34,203 nt of DNA from positions 1 to 34,203 of IMG/VR virus record IMGVR_UViG_3300021478_000084, one strand, 5' to 3'. A program made the position numbers and the translations under genes. This stretch comes from a virus. The notes under the pieces are model-generated. The model saw only the letters and a list, made by a program, of their open reading frames with translations, was not told where the DNA came from and did no database searches. Shown piece by piece: positions 11,161 through 34,203 of the stretch. Positions within the stretch are counted from its first letter, which is position 1. Every line of letters begins with the position of its first letter.

Positions 11161-12069
11161 ATGCCAGCCATATCCAGAGCACAACTGATGAAAGAGCTGG
11201 TCCCCGGCTTGAATGCGCTTTTCGGGCTCGAGTACAACCGCTACGACGACGAGACCAAAGACATCTTCGTGTCGGAGAACTCCGAGCGGTCGTTCGAAGA
11301 GGAGACGAAAGTCACCGGCTTCGGCCCTGCCCCGGTAAAACCCGAGGGCGAGGCTATCCAGTACGACGATGCGCAGGAGACCTACACCGCGCGATACACG
11401 CACGAAACCATTGCGATGGGTTTCGCGGTGACTGAGGAGGCCTTCGAGGACAACCTGTACGACAGTCTCTCGAAGCGCTACACCAAGGCGCTGGCGCGCT
11501 CGATGGCGCACACCAAGCAAGTCAAGGGTGCCGCCATCCTGAACAACGCTTTCAACCCTGCCTTCCCCGGCGGTGATGGAGTAAGTCTCTGTAACTTGCA
11601 ACATCCGCTGGTCATGGGCGGGGCCTACAACGCCAACATGCCGTCCACCCCGAGCGATCTCAACGAGACCTCGCTCGAAGCGGCGGCCACCACGATCTCG
11701 CTCTGGCTGGATGATCGCGGCCTGTTGATCGCGGCCAAGCCGCGCAGGATGGTCATCCCGGCGGCGCAGATCTTCACCGCCACGCGCGTCCTGCGCAGCC
11801 AGTACCGGCCCGGAACCGCCGACAACGATGTGAATGCGTTGTGGACCAACGGGACGATCCCCGAAGGCTGGAAGGTCAACCATTGGCTGGTCGATCCCAA
11901 GAGCTGGTACATCATGACGGACATCCCGAACGGTCTGAAACATTTCGTCAGGGTTCCGTTACAGACCAAGGACGATCCAGACTTTGATACGGGGAACCTT
12001 CGTTACAAGGCGAGGGAGCGGTACTCGTTCGGCTGGAGCGATCCGCTGGGGGTCTACGGCTCACCGTAG
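11161..12069 (+). CDS. Major capsid protein (302 aa)
   Basis: The protein forms the icosahedral shell. Recognisable family features are SRAQLMKELVPGLNALFGLEYNRY at the N-terminus, then ERSFEEETKVTGFGPAP. The next segment is YTARYTHETIAMGFAVTEEAFEDNLYDSLSKRYTKALARSMAHTKQVKGA, a long spine-helix-like region. Further on is LLIAAKPRRMVIPAAQIFTATRVL and a DPKSWYIMTD strand. This matches the capsid proteins of podoviruses with Mu gpT-like/HK97-type folds, and the length is normal. No N-terminal delta domain is visible, in keeping with a separate scaffold gene. The gene ends the first plus-strand operon and is followed at once by an intrinsic terminator. Confidence 0.92.
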   Translation: MPAISRAQLMKELVPGLNALFGLEYNRYDDETKDIFVSENSERSFEEETKVTGFGPAPVKPEGEAIQYDDAQETYTARYTHETIAMGFAVTEEAFEDNLYDSLSKRYTKALARSMAHTKQVKGAAILNNAFNPAFPGGDGVSLCNLQHPLVMGGAYNANMPSTPSDLNETSLEAAATTISLWLDDRGLLIAAKPRRMVIPAAQIFTATRVLRSQYRPGTADNDVNALWTNGTIPEGWKVNHWLVDPKSWYIMTDIPNGLKHFVRVPLQTKDDPDFDTGNLRYKARERYSFGWSDPLGVYGSP

Positions 12070-14929: not shown

Positions 14930-17506
14930 CTACACTCCCTCGGGCGGCAGCGGCGGCGCTTCGTTGGGCGCGGGAGCCGTCTCCGGCCCCTCGCTCGGCA
15001 GGTTGCGCAGGACGGAATCGATCCCGGCCTGATCCGCGTTGCGCTGGTGCTTCTCGCGCTCGACGCGCTGGGTCATGATATGCCGCAGGGTGTCGGCGTG
15101 CTCGCTCGCGTGGTGGCGGTGACTGTCGGCGATCTCGCTTGCGTGGTGGCGGGTGTTTTCGGCGGTGACCTTGAGCATGGTCTGCCGCTCCTGGCTCTCG
15201 ATCTTGGCGGCTTCGAGCTGGCCCTTCTGGGTGACGGCCTGCTGCTCGACCTGGAGCTTCGCCGTGTCGATCTGGTGCTTCGACTGCTGCGCCTGCTGTT
15301 TCAGTTGCAGCTCGGCCTTCTGCTGCTCGAGGATCGGGTCCTGCTGTTGCTGCTGTTGTTGCTGCTGCTGGTCCTCGGCCTGATTCTGCTGGAGCAGCTT
15401 GCTGCTCGCCTCCTGCACGAGGCCCGATAGCTCGTTCTCCGCATCCGCCGGTAGGCGCGCGCCCAAAGGCGGCAGCTGCGTGCCCAGCTTCTGCTGGATC
15501 TGGCTTCTGTACTCGTAGGCCATGTGCTCGTTGAGGTGCGCCCACATGGCCTGGGTGATGGACGGCCCGAGCGGGTTCTGGCCGAGCGCGGATTTGGTCG
15601 AGGGGTCGTTGAGGAAATTCTGATGCACCTGGATGTGCGCCATGTGGTTCTGCCACTCGAAGGCCTTGACCGGCTTCGAAGTGACCAGCGCCATGTTCTC
15701 GGCCACCGGGTCCATCGGCTCGGCGGCGGTCTTGTCGGGCACGATCTGCGCCGAGTTGTCGATGCCAAGGACCTCGAGGCAGCTGCGGTGCAGGAGCGGC
15801 AGGTCGTAGAGCTGCGGGGCTTGCGAGCTGAGCTGGATCGCGGCCTGATACTGCATGACTCTTTGGGCCATGGTCGAGGCTGCCGGATCAGAGACCGGCG
15901 TGACCGTGATCAGCTCGTTGTAGTCGGCCACCTTGATGTCGCGGCCCAGGCCGCCCGGCGGGTCGTACTCGTACTCGGGCGGGGTGTGGTCGCGGATGAT
16001 CTCGGCGATCAGGCTCAGCTCCCGGGCGAGCGCGATATGCATGCGGGCCTGCACCGCCGTGATCACTTCGGTGGCGCGCTCGATGAGCGCGAGGATGGTG
16101 CCGACGGGCGCGTTCTGCGCGCTGGTGGTGATGTCCAGCTCGGCAATCGAGGCGAAGCTCTTGCCCTCTTCCACCAGCATCTGGAGCAGCTGGAACAAAA
16201 CCGCCGACGGCTCCTTGTAGGGCAGGAATGCAATCGAGTCGAGGATCTTTCCGGCGGGCACGTCGACGTCCCGAAATTCTCCGGGCTGGATCGGGTCGTT
16301 GTCGCCCTTGATGCGCAGCTGGCGCGACTTGAGGCCGCCCGGCAGGTTGCTCAACGTGCCCGCGTCTACCAGCTGCCGCAGAATGCTGGTCGTGGAGTGG
16401 CCGATGCCGCCGATCAAATGGATTAAGCCCAAGCCGTAGGCCCCCTTCCAGGGGACGTAGCGGTAATGCACCCAGCTCAGCACCTTGGCGTGGCTCTCGT
16501 CGCCTTCGCGCCAGTTGCGGTAGATCGAGAGCACCGCGCTACTGGCCTCGTCGATGGTGACGACGTAGGGCTTCGAGCTGCCGTCGATGGCGAGGTTGGT
16601 GGTGCATTCCCACAGGGTCAGCAGCTCGTTGCGCGAGTAGCTCGGGCCGATGCCGCTCAGCCGCTGGACCTTCTCCTCGATGCGGTCGGTGGTGAGGGTT
16701 GCGTTGCGGAACAGGGTCACGTCGCGGTAGAAGCCGATCTGCTGCAGCTCGATGATGTCGCCGTAGGCCTTCTTCATGACGTGCGTGTAGCGCGGGCACG
16801 TCTCGAGGTTGGGGAAGCCGTAGGGCATCAGGAAATCGTTGGCGGGCACGTACTGCGCGACAGGCCGCTTCAAGAGCGGATCGTAGTAGACCTTCTTGAA
16901 GGCCGAGCCGTCCACCGGGATGGCGAACAGGAGCTGCTCGGTCTCGTCGCGATACTCCAGCATCTTTTCGGTGAGCCAGAAGTTGATGTCGTCGCTGACC
17001 CTTTTGGCTTGCGCGATTTTGGCCTGATTGGATTCGCCGACCACCTTGGCGGTGGCGGGGCCGGTGGGCGGAAACAGGCGCGTGATGCATTTGCTCTGAA
17101 ACCGGACGCTGGCTTCCATGATCATCGGATGCACGACGCCGCAGGCCCCGGGCCAGGGCGTGGTGCGCAGCTCGTCCTTGATGCCGAGCAGGTCCATGCC
17201 CTTGGTGAGCGCGTCTTCCCAGTCGCGGCGGCCCTGCTTGTCCTCGTCGATGGCGTAGCGGATGTCGCTTGAGATCTGCGCGAGCAGGTTATCGGGGATC
17301 ACCTCGGCGAGGTTCGTATCGAAAGGCGCACTGGCGACGGATTCTTCCACCGACGGCGGTTCGCCTGCACCTTCGAGGTAGACGTCCACACTGCCATCGG
17401 AATTTTCGATAGAGAAGGCGTTGGGATCAACCGGCACTGAGGCCTGGGCAAGGCCGGTCGATCCCAGGCCATTGGAAAGTGGCGAAACCAATGGCCGGTC
17501 AATCAT
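14930..17506 (-). CDS. Portal protein (858 aa)
   Basis: The portal is the dodecameric DNA channel at one capsid vertex. Supporting features are the N-terminal ISSDIRYAIDEDKQGRRDWEDALTKGMDLLG and PWPGACGVVHPMIMEASVRFQSK. They are followed by VDGSAFKKVYYDPLLKRPVAQYVPANDFLMPYG and CPRYTHVMKK, then HYRYVPWKGAYGLGLIHLIGGIGHSTTSILRQLVDAGTLSN, and GTILALIERATEVITAVQARMH. These are typical of large podovirus portals. The C-terminus is a long Gln-rich coiled coil with a ten-Gln run (residues 713-722, bases 15341-15370) and RHHASE repeats; it may form the long portal barrel inside the head. The start is ATG 17506. GAGGGG lies 12 bases upstream, an unusually long spacing produced by an 11-bp tandem duplication. 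The gene is on the strand opposite to terL and the capsid gene. Confidence 0.93.
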   Translation of the reverse strand: MIDRPLVSPLSNGLGSTGLAQASVPVDPNAFSIENSDGSVDVYLEGAGEPPSVEESVASAPFDTNLAEVIPDNLLAQISSDIRYAIDEDKQGRRDWEDALTKGMDLLGIKDELRTTPWPGACGVVHPMIMEASVRFQSKCITRLFPPTGPATAKVVGESNQAKIAQAKRVSDDINFWLTEKMLEYRDETEQLLFAIPVDGSAFKKVYYDPLLKRPVAQYVPANDFLMPYGFPNLETCPRYTHVMKKAYGDIIELQQIGFYRDVTLFRNATLTTDRIEEKVQRLSGIGPSYSRNELLTLWECTTNLAIDGSSKPYVVTIDEASSAVLSIYRNWREGDESHAKVLSWVHYRYVPWKGAYGLGLIHLIGGIGHSTTSILRQLVDAGTLSNLPGGLKSRQLRIKGDNDPIQPGEFRDVDVPAGKILDSIAFLPYKEPSAVLFQLLQMLVEEGKSFASIAELDITTSAQNAPVGTILALIERATEVITAVQARMHIALARELSLIAEIIRDHTPPEYEYDPPGGLGRDIKVADYNELITVTPVSDPAASTMAQRVMQYQAAIQLSSQAPQLYDLPLLHRSCLEVLGIDNSAQIVPDKTAAEPMDPVAENMALVTSKPVKAFEWQNHMAHIQVHQNFLNDPSTKSALGQNPLGPSITQAMWAHLNEHMAYEYRSQIQQKLGTQLPPLGARLPADAENELSGLVQEASSKLLQQNQAEDQQQQQQQQQQDPILEQQKAELQLKQQAQQSKHQIDTAKLQVEQQAVTQKGQLEAAKIESQERQTMLKVTAENTRHHASEIADSHRHHASEHADTLRHIMTQRVEREKHQRNADQAGIDSVLRNLPSEGPETAPAPNEAPPLPPEGV

Positions 17507-19925: not shown

Positions 19926-20215
19926 CCTTCCCGCCGATGCGCCCGCAGCTCGAGATCCAGCTCAAGCACGACATGCTGATGTGCCTGATGGGCGACTCGA
20001 GGCTGCTCCAGGCCATCGTTCCCCGGCAGTATCACGCGGCGCTCGCCATGGCGACGGACGCATTGTGCTGGGTGCTCCATCACGACGTGGAGAGCCACCC
20101 GCACTCGCATGCCGGGGATTTCGCGCAGTGCCTGAAAGATATTCAGGAAGGGCTGGAAAGCATCGGTGGTCCGTTTGAGCCGCCGCCCGATACCGAGTAC
20201 GTCGTGGAGGAATGA
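19913..20215 (+). CDS. Hypothetical protein (100 aa)
   Basis: ATG 19913 has GGAGG eight bases upstream. ATG 19922, giving an ATGA overlap with the preceding stop, is an equally good start and removes three residues. The product is helical (LEIQLKHDMLMCLMGDSRLLQAIVPRQYHAALAMATDALCWVL) with a His-rich turn (HHDVESHPHSH), then an acidic C-terminus. The next gene overlaps its stop. No family is recognised. Confidence 0.65.
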   Translation: MAGMTFPPMRPQLEIQLKHDMLMCLMGDSRLLQAIVPRQYHAALAMATDALCWVLHHDVESHPHSHAGDFAQCLKDIQEGLESIGGPFEPPPDTEYVVEE

Positions 20216-20610
20216 TGCCCCGCTACCCCAAGCAGCCGCTCGAGGACAAGCTCGCCTGGATGCGCGACCGGCAGAACCAGAAGAAGGCCGAGGAGGATCT
20301 GCGCGCCAGGGAGGAGACCCGGCGCGCGCAGGTAGCCAGCGGGGCATCCTCCCCGGCGGAGGCCATACTGCGCGATCTGCTCCAGACCCTGGCGGCGCAG
20401 CGCCAGCCGGTGCGACCGGCACCGGCGGTGACGCGGCAGATGCTGCGCGTCGGTCAGGTGGCGGAGATCCTGTCGGTCTCGGCCCGGACGGTGCAGCGCT
20501 GGTTCGCCGACCGGGCCGTCATCGTCCAAGGGCCTACCAAGACCACCATGCTGATCCCCCAGCAGGCCCTGGACGACTGGTTGCGCGAGCATGCGCCGAA
20601 GGTCAGTTGA
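20212..20610 (+). CDS. Excisionase-like / MerR-type HTH protein (132 aa)
   Basis: The N-terminal half is charged and helical (about residues 10-40). Residues 77-127 form a compact HTH of the excisionase/MerR (HTH_17) type: MLRVGQVAEILSVSARTVQRWFADRAV, a short wing with TTMLIP, then QQALDDWLREHAPK. The gene is convergent with and overlaps the integrase gene by eight bases. A recombination directionality factor (Xis) for that integrase is the natural reading. A lysogeny regulator is the alternative. ATG 20212 and 20215 are both possible starts. Confidence 0.75.
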   Translation: MMPRYPKQPLEDKLAWMRDRQNQKKAEEDLRAREETRRAQVASGASSPAEAILRDLLQTLAAQRQPVRPAPAVTRQMLRVGQVAEILSVSARTVQRWFADRAVIVQGPTKTTMLIPQQALDDWLREHAPKVS

Positions 20611-21880
20611 CGCTCGCGGCTTCCGCCGAGGCGCAGGCTTCGGCGAAGTTCGCGGCCTGCTTGGCGGCGGCCTGCCGGTTCTCGACGGCTTCCTGCATGC
20701 CGAGCACGTAGGGCGCGTAATACTTCTGGGTGGTGGCGATGGTGCGGTGGCCGAGCATGCGCCGCACGTCCTCGAGCGAGAGGCCCAGGTTGAGCATGTT
20801 GACCGCGAAGGAGTCGCGGAAGCGGTGCGGGCGCAGCGAGCCCTCGATCCCGAGCAGCACGCCCAGCTCGCGCAGCGGCGTGTCGAGCGCGATCTTCAGG
20901 TAGTTGTTGTGATCCTTGCGGGAGCCGTCGAAGAACGGATACATGCCCGCGCCGGGCTGGCTCGGATCGCCGCGCCACTTGAGGCAAGGCAGGGCGCGCA
21001 GCCGGTCAACCAGCGCCTGGGGCAGGAAGCAGACCACCTCATCGCTGGTCTTGACCTGCGCGGTGATGTATCTGCCGCCATGCCGCGTGTTCACGATCCA
21101 GTCGGGGCGGAAGATGAGGGCGTCACTGCGGCGCAGCCCGGTCTCGTACATCAGCCACAGCATGGTGAGGAAGGTGTCGGGGTGGCGGAGGAGCGGGTTC
21201 CCCCGGCGGATCTTCTGGCGGGGCAGCTGGCCGCGCACGAAGGCCGGAACGGCTTCCTGAATGCGCAGCCAGTTGGCGTTGCCCTTGCGGTCGAGCGGCA
21301 GGGTGGCAATGCCTTTGTCCTGCTTCTTGCCCGCCATGATGTCTTCCTTGGTCAATTTCTTTTCGGTGATCGCCTCGACCGGCTTCCAGGGGTTCTTGAC
21401 GAGGTCGTGAAAATTCACGCAGTAGTTGAAGAGGCACGAGGTGTACTTGCGCCAGTTATGGATCGTGTTCAGGCTCTTCTTCCGCCAGCCCTCCTGCAGC
21501 TCGTTGAGGTGCTGGCTGGTGACGTCCTTGACGAAGACCACGCCCTTGGCGGTGAGCGGTTCGATCAGCACGTGCTTGACCGAGGAGTAGGCCTGCCATG
21601 TGGGCGAGTCCTCGACATACCTCCCTTGCCCCAGCCAGAGGTTGTAGGCGTCGATCAGCTTCAGAGCCTCGGGCTCCTCGGGGGCCTCCTTCCTGGGCGG
21701 CCACTCGGTGACCTTCTCGAGTTCGATTACCCTGGCTTCGGCGGCCTGCCGGGTGAGCTTGTCGACCTTACCATAGCGGTCGTAGACGGCGATGTTGATC
21801 GTGTGGCGCTTGATCTTCACGCCCATGTTATTCTTTCCCTCGACGTGATACCAGGGGCCTCGGATCTTCAGTTTCAGCAT
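20603..21880 (-). CDS. int: Tyrosine recombinase (phage integrase, 425 aa)
   Basis: The open frame starts at 21925, but ATG 21880 has GGGAG six to seven bases upstream. The N-terminus has an arm-type DNA-binding look (WYHVEGKNNMGVKIKRHTINIAVYDRYG). A SAM-like core-binding domain follows (LIDAYNLWLGQGRYVEDSP...). The catalytic domain has all expected residues: Arg250 (ETGLRRSD), Lys277 (VKTSD), His352-x-x-Arg355 (RPHRFRDSF), His378 (GHRTIATTQKYY) and the nucleophile Tyr387. The length is normal. It catalyses site-specific integration and, with an Xis, excision. The upstream leader contains two interleaved inverted repeats that could control translation. Confidence 0.93.
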   Translation of the reverse strand: MLKLKIRGPWYHVEGKNNMGVKIKRHTINIAVYDRYGKVDKLTRQAAEARVIELEKVTEWPPRKEAPEEPEALKLIDAYNLWLGQGRYVEDSPTWQAYSSVKHVLIEPLTAKGVVFVKDVTSQHLNELQEGWRKKSLNTIHNWRKYTSCLFNYCVNFHDLVKNPWKPVEAITEKKLTKEDIMAGKKQDKGIATLPLDRKGNANWLRIQEAVPAFVRGQLPRQKIRRGNPLLRHPDTFLTMLWLMYETGLRRSDALIFRPDWIVNTRHGGRYITAQVKTSDEVVCFLPQALVDRLRALPCLKWRGDPSQPGAGMYPFFDGSRKDHNNYLKIALDTPLRELGVLLGIEGSLRPHRFRDSFAVNMLNLGLSLEDVRRMLGHRTIATTQKYYAPYVLGMQEAVENRQAAAKQAANFAEACASAEAASVN

Positions 21881-21976
21881 CAAAATCTCCCTTGCTTGCC
21901 GGACGTTTCTCGTCCAACGAGCCAATCCTACCAGGATCTGATGCTGAAAACAAGCTACTTATTGCTAGCAAGCAAG
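21872..21976 (-). promoter_or_regulatory. Integrase leader with interleaved complementary segments (possible pseudoknot) or integrase arm sites
   Basis: In minus-strand order: CTTGCTTGC (21976-21968), TTTCAGCATC (21949-21940), GCAAGCAAG (21899-21891, abutting the GGGAG ribosome-binding site) and GATGCTGAAA (21881-21872, containing the ATG). The first pairs with the third (9 bp) and the second with the fourth (10 bp). A GGACG-N5-CGTCC hairpin (21915-21901) lies between. The topology a-b-a'-b' would be a pseudoknot in RNA. In DNA the same repeats could be arm-type recombinase or Xis sites. Confidence 0.6.
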
Positions 21977-29976: not shown

Positions 29977-31280
29977 CCGATCCGAACGAGGGCTGGATCG
30001 ACGTCCCTGCGACCGCGCCAGCGGCGGCAGCTCCGGCGGCAGCTCCAGCGAGTGCGGACACCGGCTGGGTCGATGTGCCGGAGGACAAACCCCAGGGACC
30101 TCCGCCGCCATCGGCCACCGACTTCCTGCTCAATCAGGCACCGCACTCGATCTACCGCGCGGCTTCGAGTCTCACGCACGCGGTGATCCATCCCATCGAC
30201 ACCGCCTGGAACGCGGGCAAGCTGGTCGCGGGCACGCTCCGGGCGGCGGCGCGCGGCGCAGGCATGGACATGCCGGACAACGAGGCGGATCAGGTTGCGC
30301 GCCACTTCGTGGACTACGCGAAGAACCGCTGGGGCGGCGTGGATGAAATCAAGAACGCGCTGTATCACGATCCGGCGGGGATGCTGATGGACTTCTCGGC
30401 GGCCTTGAGCGGCGCGGGCGGCGTACTGCGCGGCGCGGGCGCGCTCTCCGGTGTCGAAGCAGCCAGCACGCTGGGCCGGGAACTGACTACGGCAGGCGAG
30501 GTAACCAACCCGCTGTACGTTCCGAGCAGGATCGCCTCGGGTACGATCAACCGCCTGATCACCAAACCCCCTCCGGCTCCGCCTGAGCCGCCAGCTTTCG
30601 ATCCCAAGACGGTCACCTTCGCGAATGAGGAGGTCCCCTTCGATCCATCGACGGGGACGTTCCACGAGCAGCCGGGCGGCTACAAGTCGCCGCAGCCGCC
30701 GCAGGCCAAAACGGCGGCGCAGCAGCTGCGGGAGGAGTGGGGGGTCAAGGAGCCAGGGGTTGAGGCGTCTACCCCACCGCCGCCGCCCAAGCCCAAGCCG
30801 CAGCCCAAGCCCGCAGCAGCGCCACCGCCGCCACCCGCACCGCCTGCTGCAGCACCGCCGCCAGCTGGCAGCAAGCTCGCGCAGAACATTCGCACGGTCC
30901 TACAGAACCCGCTTAGCGGTGGTGCACTCACTTATGAAGCGATCAATCTGTTGACTCACCACCTTGCGGGAAGCATAGGCGGGGGACTGGTGGCTACTGC
31001 CGCCATCAAATATCTCCCACAGCTCTTGAAAAGCGAGGCGGGTCAGCAGATGCTCGCCAGGATCGGCCCGGAGAGTAACGCGGCTGCGGTGGCTGGTGTC
31101 GCCAGGGACCTCGTACCCGCGCTGAACACGCTGTATCAGTCGCAGCTCAAGCAGCAGTCGATGGGGGAGCGCTCGGCTTTCGACCGGGCCAAGGGCGGCA
31201 TGGTGAATCCCGAGCTGGCGCGCATCCAGCGCGAGCGCCTACACCTGCCCGGCATCCTTGGAATGCTTGAGCACAAATAG
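29958..31280 (+). CDS. Internal virion protein, Pro/Ala-rich with hydrophobic segments (440 aa)
   Basis: The N-terminus has two short repeats, EGWIDVPATA and TGWVDVPEDK, separated by an Ala-rich stretch. The middle has amphipathic/hydrophobic helices (LVAGTLRAAARGAGM, SAALSGAGGVLRGAGALSG) and a very Pro-rich segment (about residues 275-305). The C-terminus contains LAGSIGGGLVATAAIKYLPQLL, a likely membrane-active helix, then AFDRAKGGMVNPELARIQRERLHLPGI. This fits a genome-ejection protein acting with the three preceding gene products. The last 42 bases overlap a minus-strand membrane-protein gene. Confidence 0.75.
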   Translation: MADPAVTDPNEGWIDVPATAPAAAAPAAAPASADTGWVDVPEDKPQGPPPPSATDFLLNQAPHSIYRAASSLTHAVIHPIDTAWNAGKLVAGTLRAAARGAGMDMPDNEADQVARHFVDYAKNRWGGVDEIKNALYHDPAGMLMDFSAALSGAGGVLRGAGALSGVEAASTLGRELTTAGEVTNPLYVPSRIASGTINRLITKPPPAPPEPPAFDPKTVTFANEEVPFDPSTGTFHEQPGGYKSPQPPQAKTAAQQLREEWGVKEPGVEASTPPPPPKPKPQPKPAAAPPPPPAPPAAAPPPAGSKLAQNIRTVLQNPLSGGALTYEAINLLTHHLAGSIGGGLVATAAIKYLPQLLKSEAGQQMLARIGPESNAAAVAGVARDLVPALNTLYQSQLKQQSMGERSAFDRAKGGMVNPELARIQRERLHLPGILGMLEHK

Positions 31281-31394
31281 CACGATGGCCACAAAGAAGA
31301 GCAGCCAGCCCAGGAAGCCGAAATAATGCCCGACAATCGCCGAGCCCACCACCCCGACGATGATGCCCAGCCAGCTGTTACTGAAATCCTTCAT
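31239..31394 (-). CDS. Small two-helix membrane protein (51 aa)
   Basis: The frame opens at 31460, but ATG 31394 (MKDFSNSWLGIIVGVVGSAI) gives a normal small membrane protein. There are two spans, about residues 8-22 and 26-43 (FGFLGWLLFFVAIVLFVL), and a charged KHSKDAGQV tail. A perfect ACCGTC-N4-GACGGT hairpin directly precedes the start codon and no Shine-Dalgarno is evident, so expression may be controlled or low. It overlaps the 3' end of the plus-strand ejection-protein gene by 42 bases. It could be a holin or a membrane-modifying protein. Hydrophobic pattern and the adjacent divergent control region are the support. Confidence 0.5.
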   Translation of the reverse strand: MKDFSNSWLGIIVGVVGSAIVGHYFGFLGWLLFFVAIVLFVLKHSKDAGQV

Positions 31395-31452
31395 ACCGTC
31401 AACAGACGGTCTTACCCTGGCCCCGGATGCCCGCCTGGGGTGAAACCGGAAG

Positions 31453-31468
31453 TGTTTCACGTGAAACA
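31453..31468. other. parS: Perfect parS (chromosomal ParB/Spo0J) site
   Basis: TGTTTCACGTGAAACA is a perfect 16-bp palindrome and agrees at every position with the chromosomal parS consensus TGTTNCACGTGAAACA bound by ParB/Spo0J. It lies in a non-coding divergent region. A degenerate copy (13 of 16 matches) follows at 31472-31487. No parA or parB is encoded in the window, so the likely ligand is the host ParB. Confidence 0.85.
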
Positions 31469-31469
31469 G

Positions 31470-31499
31470 CAGGTTTCACGAAAAACACAAACCTGCAAT
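31470..31499. promoter_or_regulatory. Dyad CAGGTT-N14-AACCTG with AACCTGCAAT box, abutting parS
   Basis: CAGGTT (31470-31475) and AACCTG (31490-31495) have centres 20 bp apart, extended to GCAGGTTT/AAACCTGC by flanking bases. The spacer contains the degenerate second parS. The site starts two bases after the perfect parS, and lies between the minus-strand membrane gene and the plus-strand Pro-rich gene. The binding protein is unknown. Confidence 0.6.
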
Positions 31500-31585
31500 G
31501 GAAATGCGCTACCATGAACCGCGAAAGGCCGTGCACCCCTGATGGGATACGCGCAACCTGAAACATTAGAAAGGATTTACGTAAA

Positions 31586-32191
31586 ATGAACGGACAACTT
31601 TGCTACATCACGCCGGTTGGTTCCGGCCACCCGGATCAGGGTCTGCCGCCGGGTGTCCCCGGTGCGCCCGACCAGGGCTTGCCCACGCCCCCTGGCATCT
31701 GGCCGCCAGACTCGCTGCCGCCGCTGCCGCCTGGATTTGAGCCCCCGGTAGGCACTTGGCCACCGCAACGGCCCACCGTCCCCTCACATCCCATCGTGAT
31801 TCATCCGCCGCATCCCGGCCATCGCCCGCCCCTGTCGCCGGGCGGAGGACATCCCAGCCAGGGGCTTCCGGGTGCGCCTGGACACCCCAGCCAGGGCCTG
31901 CCGGTAGCGCCTGGGCTGCCCAGCCAGGGCCTGCCTGGGACGCCGCCTGCGCCCGATCAGGGGCTGCCGGGTGCGCCGCCGGAAGTGGACAACACATTGC
32001 CCATGCCGCCAGCCACCGTCTGGCCGCCCTTGCCCCCGGGCACCGGAATCGCGGGCAAGTGCCTCATCCTGGTTTGGATCGTGGGCGTGGGCTATCGCTG
32101 GCTGGTGGTTCAGGGCACGGATACGTGGCCTCCGCAGCTTCCGCCGGGACGCCCCGACCAGGGCCTGCCGCCGGTCCCTCAACCCAAGTAA
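31586..32191 (+). CDS. Pro-rich virion-type protein with P(D/S)QGLP repeats (201 aa)
   Basis: Seven copies of a P-(D/S)-Q-G-L-P unit are spread along the protein (for example GHPDQGLPPG, HPSQGLPGAPG and RPDQGLPPVP), separated by Pro/Trp-rich linkers (GIWPPDSLPPLPPG). Near the C-terminus GKCLILVWIVGVGYRWLVVQ forms the only folded-looking segment. Proteins with Pro-rich linkers and a conserved GVGYRW strand pair are common beside podovirus structural genes. AAAGGA lies 11 bases before ATG. A virion-surface or decoration role is possible; the family function is unknown. Confidence 0.75.
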   Translation: MNGQLCYITPVGSGHPDQGLPPGVPGAPDQGLPTPPGIWPPDSLPPLPPGFEPPVGTWPPQRPTVPSHPIVIHPPHPGHRPPLSPGGGHPSQGLPGAPGHPSQGLPVAPGLPSQGLPGTPPAPDQGLPGAPPEVDNTLPMPPATVWPPLPPGTGIAGKCLILVWIVGVGYRWLVVQGTDTWPPQLPPGRPDQGLPPVPQPK

Positions 32192-32248: not shown

Positions 32249-32380
32249 ATGCCTCCTCTGGGCAATTACGCACAGCAACAACAACAGCCCGGCCAGCAGA
32301 CGCAAGGTGCCCCCAGCGCACCGCCTCCGCAGCCGCTTCCACAGAATGGCCCCGTCCCGCGCGGTCCCCAGCCGCGCTAG
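32249..32380 (+). CDS. Tiny Gln/Pro-rich protein (43 aa)
   Basis: A strong AGGAG (32236-32240) lies eight bases before ATG. The product begins MPPLGNYAQQQQQPGQQTQG and ends PVPRGPQPR. It is disordered, with no hydrophobic segment. Its TAG stop overlaps the TAG stop of the convergent ribbon-helix-helix gene by two bases. The excellent ribosome-binding site and the exact interlocking of stops argue that it is translated. It may be a small virion peptide like its Pro-rich neighbour; the function is unknown. Confidence 0.6.
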   Translation: MPPLGNYAQQQQQPGQQTQGAPSAPPPQPLPQNGPVPRGPQPR

Positions 32381-32685
32381 GCGGCCTGCCCCTTCTGCTT
32401 GTCGAGTTCATGGGCGAGGCGCACCGCCGAACGCGCAATGGCGTGCAGCCGCCGGATGCGGTCCTGCATGGGGCTGAGCTTGCGCACGGGCTTCAGGTCT
32501 TCCTCCTGATCGAGGCGCTGCCGGATGAAGGCGCGCAACAGATCGCCGTAAGAGTAGCCGGGACGTTCCACTCGCGCCCTCTCGAGAAGCACGGTCAATG
32601 CCCGATAATCGTCCCCCGACACCAGCACACTGATCTGCTTGGAGGAACGGAACAGCTGTGGACGTCCCTGCATGATGGCTTTCAT
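32377..32685 (-). CDS. Ribbon-helix-helix-like DNA-binding protein (102 aa)
   Basis: The frame opens at 32766, but ATG 32685 removes an unlikely N-terminus and places the start after the TATAAA-containing non-coding region. Residues 16-22 (KQISVLV) would be the beta-ribbon, 24-38 the first helix (GDDYRALTVLLERAR) and 45-59 the second (SYGDLLRAFIRQRLD), as in CopG/Arc proteins. A basic helical tail follows (RRLHAIARSAVRLAHELDKQ). RHH proteins usually repress their own promoter through inverted repeats. A TTTTCCC/GGGAAAA dyad lies 10 bases upstream. It could control the divergent genes leading to terL. No toxin partner is seen. Confidence 0.65.
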   Translation of the reverse strand: MKAIMQGRPQLFRSSKQISVLVSGDDYRALTVLLERARVERPGYSYGDLLRAFIRQRLDQEEDLKPVRKLSPMQDRIRRLHAIARSAVRLAHELDKQKGQAA

Positions 32686-32695
32686 TTTATATTTG

Positions 32696-32754: not shown

Positions 32755-33162
32755 ATGGCGAAGCAACAGGACATCACCGTCTTCCAGGGCGACAACTGGG
32801 CCGCCATGGTCACGGTCTCTAACCCCGACCGCACCCCAGCCGATTTGACCGGCTACACGGCCAAGGCGCAGATGCGCGAGGGGATCGCGGACCAGTCGTG
32901 GTTCGTCGCGGCGGAGTTCACCTGCGCCGTCGTCCTGCCCAACCTGATCTCGCTCTCGCTCACCAGCGACCAGACCACGCTCCTGAGGCAGAGCGCCTAC
33001 CTGTGGGACTTGCAGGTCGTCTCACCCGCTGGCATCGTCAGCACGCTGCTCGGCGGTGCGGTGCAGATCCTCTTCGAGGTGACGCGCATCGTGCAAACCC
33101 CCATATCGCCGGTCGATGCGCGGCAGCTGGCCGAGGCCGACGCGCTGAGGAGGAATCGATGA
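32755..33162 (+). CDS. Ig-like/BppU-N-like virion protein (135 aa)
   Basis: The sequence [39 protein letters not shown], then [14 protein letters not shown] and [26 protein letters not shown], follows the beta-sandwich pattern of the N-terminal domain of BppU-type baseplate proteins and similar phage fibre-attachment domains (DLTGYxxxxxxR ... LTxxQT ... YxWDL). It is immediately followed, with an ATGA overlap, by a collagen-like gene. The two may make a composite fibre or decoration. There is no clear ribosome-binding site. Confidence 0.7.
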
Positions 33163-33461
33163 GCCAAGCGAGCTTCACCGCCAGCCTGCCGGGCGTCTCC
33201 GGCTTTACCGCCGCGCTCGCGCCGGGCATCCCGATCCCCGGCCCCGTAGGGCCACAGGGACCGCAGGGCGTCCCCGGGCCGACCGGGCCGATAGGACCGC
33301 TGGGCGTCGGCCCGATGGGGCCTGCCGGGCCGCAGGGCATCCCCGGCAATCAGGGCGTCCCCGGCCCGCAAGGGCCGCCCGGACCACCCGGGCCGAGCTA
33401 CCTCGCGGTGCTCCAGCAGCTCGAGCAGCGCATCGCGGCCCTCGAGAGCAAGATGGGCTAG
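33159..33461 (+). CDS. Collagen-like fibre protein (100 aa)
   Basis: The frame opens far upstream, but ATG 33159 has AGGAGGAA just before it and an ATGA overlap with the previous stop. After a short N-terminus ([22 protein letters not shown]) there are about 18 Gly-X-Y triplets rich in Pro and Gln ([20 protein letters not shown] and onward). The C-terminus is a short heptad coiled coil ([19 protein letters not shown]), a likely trimerisation clamp. It should form a trimeric collagen-like stalk on the virion. It is encoded between a BppU-like protein and terL. Confidence 0.85.
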
Positions 33462-33465
33462 CCCC

Positions 33466-34203
33466 ATGGCCGCGCCCGACCTCGATTACTTCGAAAAGAA
33501 TTTCGCGTTCCTCCCGGCGAACGTGCAGAACGCCGTGCGCGAGCAGCTGGTGCGGCTGCGGGGCGGCGATCCGGTGGTCGAGTCGCGCGAGAACTTCCTC
33601 TCCTTCGTGCGCCGCGTCTGGCCGCAGTACGTCCATGGCCGCCACCACGACGTCATGGCGGAGGCCTTCGAGCGCATCGAGCGCGGCGAGCTGAAGCGCT
33701 GCATCATCAACATGCCGCCGCGCTCGACCAAGAGCCGCTTCACGAGCATCCTGTTTCCGGCATGGTATCTGGGCCGCCACCCGGAACGGAAGATCTTCGA
33801 GGCCTCTCACTCGGCCTCGCTCAGTGGCGACTTCGGGCGCGACCTGCGCAACCTCGTGCGCACCGAGGAGTACCAGGAGATCTTCCCCGGCGTGATCCTG
33901 CGCCAGGACTCGCGCGCGGCCCACCGCTGGAGCACCAAGCAGGGCGGCGAGTACTTCGCGATTGGGAAGACCGGCGGCGCTGCCGGTAAGGGCGGCGATC
34001 TGGTCGTGATCGACGATCCCCATTCGGAGCAGGACGTCCTCAAGAACGCGCGCCATGAGTTCGCCAAGACCTGGAGCTGGTATCTGGCCGGGCCGCGCCA
34101 GCGCCTCCAGCCGGGCGCGGCAATTCTGGTCGTGATGACGCGCTGGGGGCCGGAGGATCTCACCGGCCAGCTGATCCGGCAGTACACCGAGACCGACGAG
34201 GAG
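33466..34203 (+). CDS. terL: Terminase large subunit (3'-truncated by window edge; 246 residues present)
   Basis: The frame runs off the window with no stop. ATG 33466 lies four bases after the collagen gene stop. The protein is the packaging motor. The adenine-binding/N-terminal region is FLSFVRRVWPQYVHGRHHDVMAEAFERI. The Walker A-like motif MPPRSTKS (residues 83-90) has Thr in place of the usual Gly before Lys, as in several PPRxxKS terminases. Walker B is LVVIDDP (179-185). A conserved AILVVMTRW segment, corresponding to the coupling motif, lies near 218-226. The nuclease domain lies beyond the window. The encoded N-terminal part is intact. Confidence 0.93.
   Translation, partial: MAAPDLDYFEKNFAFLPANVQNAVREQLVRLRGGDPVVESRENFLSFVRRVWPQYVHGRHHDVMAEAFERIERGELKRCIINMPPRSTKSRFTSILFPAWYLGRHPERKIFEASHSASLSGDFGRDLRNLVRTEEYQEIFPGVILRQDSRAAHRWSTKQGGEYFAIGKTGGAAGKGGDLVVIDDPHSEQDVLKNARHEFAKTWSWYLAGPRQRLQPGAAILVVMTRWGPEDLTGQLIRQYTETDEE

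Follow-up and report, generated by a model that had tools for sequence, protein, structure and literature searches.

Clamps formed by ParB and CTP are known on chromosomes and also on plasmids and phages that encode their own ParB. The partition loci of P1 and N15 encode their own ParA and ParB and use a different centromere of their own. Like these phage-plasmid loci and mycobacteriophage parABS, the locus described here places a ParB-type centromere sequence on a phage, but it is a host-type site without the proteins. It shares with the parS sites of chromosomal ParABS systems (Spo0J/ParB class) an identical 16-bp palindrome, a clustering of half-sites, and, in related phages, tandem TGTTTC/TGTTCC variants. 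It differs from them in being located on a phage, usually as one site, where neither parA nor parB was found on the same element, and in related phages the sites are linked to the terminase gene instead of a replication origin. The available text of PMC5521831 describes promoter repression at parS3/parS4 of Pseudomonas aeruginosa, which resembles the present case in that parS adjoins promoters and local silencing by a ParB nucleoprotein is possible; the genes there are chromosomal, whereas here a phage late/packaging region is concerned. In imaging with lambda-parS and CFP-ParB (PMC13190303), parS on a phage genome likewise recruits ParB after injection, but the site was engineered, ParB was supplied, and the use was for labeling only. 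No report of phages using a host-type parS was found in the open-licence literature.

The parS site and its surroundings in the window

The window analyzed here is an entire IMG/VR virus record of 34,203 bp, which corresponds to only about 55% of a genome of about 62 kb. It is a genome fragment, since terL extends beyond its 3′ end and larger relatives are about 49 to 64 kb. The phage is probably tailed and, because its gene set includes a tyrosine integrase, probably temperate; in addition to the genes listed in Table 1, tail fibres are encoded. Candidate DNA-binding proteins in the window include the HTH_17 protein and one or more weakly MarR-like proteins. A 105-aa protein adjoining terL (32377-32694, minus strand) is ribbon-helix-helix-like by eye, has no Pfam/PHROG match, and is kept in several relatives at 43 to 49%. 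A collagen-like Gly-X-Y protein is encoded immediately 5′ of terL (33159-33461, plus strand).

Table 1. Coordinates of the parS cluster and of selected genes in the window
Feature	Position	Strand	Evidence or remark
parS	31453..31468	.	TGTTTCACGTGAAACA; exact match to the chromosomal parS consensus
Imperfect second parS-like site	31472..31487	+	GGTTTCACGAAAAACA; 3 mismatches; 3 bp after first parS
Extra parS half-site GTGAAAC	31440..31446	-	6 bp before parS
Inverted repeat GCAGGTTT-12-AAACCTGC	31469..31496	.	Overlaps second parS-like site; read from sequence
Divergent intergenic region with parS cluster, 191 bp	31395..31585	.	ORF map
Small hydrophobic, membrane-like 51-aa ORF	31239..31394	-	Left neighbor; reads away from parS
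Pro/Gly-rich 201-aa ORF	31586..32191	+	Right neighbor; reads away from parS
terL, terminase large subunit, cut by window end	33466..34203	+	phrog_4758, E 1e-55
Tyrosine integrase	20603..21925	-	PF00589, E 9e-17
HTH_17 excisionase/regulator-like protein	20212..20610	+	PF12728, phrog_66
Portal	14930-17506	-	Pfam/PHROG scans
Capsid protein	11161-12069		Pfam/PHROG scans

The portal of the window has relatives among uncultured records reaching 60 to 64 kb. Cultured relatives include the pelagiphages HTVC027P and HTVC023P, podophages of cyanobacteria, Roseobacter, and Caulobacter, DSL-LC04, and a few others. Alignment of terL to GTDB returned 47 loci at 45 to 53% identity, mostly on short phage-like contigs in bins. 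These 47 terL contigs of the window's phage family (L408-L454) were in bins from many phyla, as binned phages, and one of them (L447) is located on a contig labeled as a Dehalococcoidia chromosome. Window-type prophages in GTDB genomes were sought by capsid alignment, and none was found.

The initial annotation had described a perfectly palindromic, exact parS in a noncoding region, and this description was borne out. The window scan gave 0 mismatches to the chromosomal parS consensus, for which the 16-bp palindrome TGTTYCACGTGRAACA was taken in the form given in the available text of PMC10197239, after Livny et al. 2007. The site is noncoding in the ORF map, barring a doubtful overlapping 63-aa ORF being real. 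The second parS-like site contains an intact GTTTCAC half-site (31473-31479), and several ParBs bind GTTTCAC half-sites (PMC7022226). Half-sites of this kind (GTTTCAC/GTGAAAC) occurred five times in the window, with four of the five at 31440-31479 and an expectation of 2.2 for all 34 kb. The claim that a chance expectation would be far below one was likewise upheld: two sites at ≤3 mismatches were present in the window, versus 0.07 per shuffled window, and two were reached in 0 of 100 shuffles.

RNA folding across 31395-31600 gave a z score of -2.85. A structured RNA or riboswitch at the parS region was rejected, as an Rfam match was absent, and a tRNA/att site was rejected, as the window contains no tRNA. 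By blastn with 31240-31640, the intergenic region had no match in cultured phages or plasmids, and recent import from either source was rejected.

Seven relatives (G002, G006, G007, G009, G011, G016, and G019) with records of 49 to 63 kb were compared with the window; where terL was found, it was 63 to 78% identical to that of the window. In all seven, parS was absent within 3 mismatches. The ORFs flanking parS had little or no counterpart among these relatives: the left neighbor, which had a weak match to phrog_31976 (a family of unknown function), had no homolog in any of them, and the right neighbor had a partial homolog in G007 only. Judged from these alignments, parS is located in a variable segment of the genome.

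Occurrence of exact parS and its position relative to terL

The exact parS 16-mer was found in at least 120 IMG/VR contigs, whereas two composition-matched control palindromes gave 1 and 5 over the whole collection. About 140 exact carriers were estimated in total, given that 12 of the 14 carriers of one clade were among the matches listed; in absolute terms, exact parS is rare across IMG/VR. The excess over chance that marks a chromosome-type parS within its sequence class was present in both the IMG/VR and the terL counts. Chance was rejected as the origin of parS, with shuffles and control palindromes far below the observed counts. Most carriers, the window included, have a single parS, and some (L017, L044, L053, and L063) have arrays of three to five exact copies.

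Among the sites listed, 33% were outside ORFs of ≥60 aa, versus 6.8% of random positions. Coding copies were read mostly in the VSRET frame, in unrelated proteins and often in Pro/Ala/Gln-rich stretches. For one pair of contigs (L055 and L084), a coding parS was identical at 16 of 16 positions and the neighboring coding DNA was clearly diverged. This identity, together with the VSRET reading in unrelated stretches, points to selection on parS at the DNA level.

A homolog of the HTVC027P terL was present in 34 of the 120 listed loci, and in 14 of these 34, parS was 33 to 148 bp upstream of it. A further set was assembled by terL similarity, with all contigs of the parS scan removed to avoid circularity (185 contigs, 158 of them with ≥150 bp upstream; parS-like defined as ≤2 mismatches). 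In this terL-fetched set, for which terL starts were extrapolated from alignments, many comparison contigs were short, counts per clade were low, and some queries still included seeds chosen for parS (the GTDB query did not), 7 parS-like sites, in 6 contigs, were found in a total of 32.7 kb upstream of terL and 8 in 1,413 kb elsewhere, 5 of the latter in one lineage. The control palindromes were found 0 times upstream of terL in the same set. An independent scan of GTDB bins located exact parS at -37, -77, and -90 before terL in 3 of 47 cases, and in a motif-free count of perfect palindromes upstream of terL, parS was the commonest 12-, 14-, and 16-mer. A one-mismatch site in L127-L133 lies within a 1,360-aa ORF of one lineage and was not counted as independent.

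Within the terL family, the site was sporadic, in 6 of 158 terL-fetched contigs and in 4 of 80 contigs close to HTVC027P. Conservation in related phages, which the initial annotation had put forward as a check, was mixed: absence from the seven relatives counts in part against the proposal, and across the wider family, sites were present sporadically, yet exactly, with one copy kept at 16 of 16 positions in the pair L055/L084. In L097/L332, L333, and L453, parS formed a tandem with the other classical variant, TGTTCCACGTGGAACA, and single variants in L356, L318, and L365 fell at the position of known variability in parS. Such tracking of parS degeneracy would not be expected for a phage-specific operator or terminase site.

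Several further observations were made in the same region. Five exact parS copies each were found in L017 (2657-3444) and L044 (10535-11462), in the roughly 1.5 kb before terL; these contigs, which have no ParB, carry a divergent terL with about 28% identity to its HTVC027P counterpart. Palindromes resembling GGGGNCCCC recurred at the terL start codon (L097, L120, L083, L101, L119, and others) in the intergenic region that also holds parS and are perhaps cos/pac candidates. In L394, a related yet different palindrome, CTTTTCACGTGAAAAG, is upstream of terL where others have parS.

The cultured pelagiphage HTVC027P has a near-exact parS in a coding frame (FHVKH codons). The ORF that holds it is unannotated, about 123 aa in length, and nuclease-like by eye (GTPDLLGYNNFGHFFTLELKV; L246 approximately 15,727-16,095, equal to HTVC027P approximately 16,218-16,586). 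As a clean cultured example, HTVC027P was downgraded to weak support, given the location of the copy inside this ORF, and the copy might be a coincidence.

Candidate readers and uses of the site

The initial annotation had stated that no parA or parB gene was visible in the phage genome. For the window, this was confirmed: ParB_N (PF02195), HTH_ParB (PF17762), and ParA (PF13614) had no match, and a hidden ParB or ParA was rejected after these and the Pfam/PHROG scans of the main ORFs were negative; for the genome as a whole, the statement extends to the 55% or so that the window covers. The genes of a self-contained ParABS system were not found on the elements searched, with parB absent from the window (a fragment) and from complete HTVC027P and parA (ParA-type AAA_31 ATPase) absent from the window, HTVC027P, and the tested virus records. 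Among the 120 exact-parS carriers listed, 4 had a ParB_N match (3 of the 4 above the cut-off), and HTH_ParB was found in 0 of 42 carriers and relatives checked. The phages in which exact parS is over-represented and linked in position mostly lack a ParB gene in the available sequence.

In the relative G007, a gene located between portal and integrase-like genes (L222:7238-8257, equal to G007 47,238-48,257) specifies a ParB-like protein of 339 aa that has ParB_N and an FGERR motif. Despite this gene, a chromosomal-type parS is absent from the G007 genome, and the protein is possibly an orphan phage ParB with a different specificity.

The site is likely a genuine parS with host ParB as its reader, and to this extent the proposal of the initial annotation gained support: exact parS is enriched collection-wide relative to control palindromes, carriers almost never encode ParB, sites recur before terL, and a second parS variant occurs in tandem. 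We assign a probability of roughly 0.55 to the reading that the palindrome works as a chromosome-type parS and would load the host ParB clamp onto phage DNA. Its components differ in strength: binding of the window parS by host ParB is likely, and service to the phage, rather than neutrality, is probable to a lesser degree. As a mechanism, local silencing or organizing of the late/packaging module by ParB is preferred, tentatively and at odds clearly below even. Host ParB would nucleate at the phage parS and then slide, as a CTP-dependent clamp, across the adjoining kilobases, and its spread would silence or organize terL and its neighbors for as long as the host chromosome machinery is intact. 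According to the available text of PMC8367383, the ParB clamp travels over kilobases; a site may therefore coincide with the terL promoter, fall within a late gene close by, or lie 1 to 4 kb off. The window parS, 2.0 kb before the start of terL, is compatible with this reading for the same reason, and direct control of the terL promoter is unlikely in the window because that distance and a minus-strand ORF intervene. In Pseudomonas, ParB represses promoters adjoining parS, as described in the available text of PMC5521831 and PMC7022226. The absence of parS from the seven relatives and its sporadic occurrence even in the terL family count against the preferred reading.

Host ParB and ParA might instead segregate or position the phage DNA, as for a plasmid-like or integrating temperate phage, or hold it near the host origin. 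One high-affinity parS can suffice for segregation (available text of PMC4368675), and the phage looks temperate with no parA or parB of its own found in the window. A prophage with an integrase, however, has no need of partition; a centromere can be anywhere, so the recurrent terL position is unexpected, and the near-exact copy of cultured HTVC027P is in a coding frame. This use is considered unlikely. Tethering, partition of a circular prophage, and a decoy role, which the initial annotation had offered, are not favored because the window has a tyrosine integrase and the site is linked to terL across the family.

Somewhat less likely still is a packaging or genome-end mark, by which ParB or ParB-loaded SMC would resolve or orient replicated DNA for terminase, or a pac/cos-type element would be read by the small terminase. 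The clustering of parS at terL, the five-copy arrays of L017 and L044, and the GGGGNCCCC-like palindromes adjoining terL starts would suit such a mark. A phage-specific terminase site should not, however, match the host parS consensus across multiple lineages, nor is a second classical parS variant alongside it expected; some sites are also inside late genes away from terL, and most family members have no site.

The palindrome would be an operator if a phage-encoded DNA-binding protein, either a repressor or a ParB-like protein from the missing half of the genome, had parS specificity. The site occupies a promoter-like region between divergent genes, the window covers only part of the genome, and G007 does encode a ParB-like protein; but parS is absent from G007, the slot syntenic to the G007 gene falls inside the window and holds no such gene, and complete HTVC027P and the 61.5-kb L055 have sites with no match to ParB_N, HTH_ParB, or ParA. 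An operator is considered improbable. Equally improbable is a neutral origin, either as a palindrome that arose by chance or as an unused piece of host DNA gained by recombination: the absence from the seven relatives and the low family frequency would fit, but the observed counts were almost never reached by controls, the pattern is one of exact presence or absence with enrichment between genes and before terL, and blastn of the flanks matched neither plasmids nor cultured phages. A decoy that titrates or misdirects host ParB/SMC and so disturbs host chromosome segregation is very improbable: the multicopy arrays and the multiplication of sites by phage replication would serve it, but most carriers have one site and the terL position is left unexplained.

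Implications for the phage family

Taken across the family, it is possible, at somewhat less than even odds, that a large and mostly uncultured group of podophages (relatives of HTVC023P and HTVC027P) has repeatedly evolved docking of host ParB by terL for control or organization of late functions and packaging, perhaps with SMC. The recurrence of exact parS just upstream of terL makes this a compact, testable prediction. If true, a phage would borrow a bacterial centromere protein without encoding ParB, infection would target or make use of host ParB/SMC, and chromosome segregation would be linked to late gene control or packaging.
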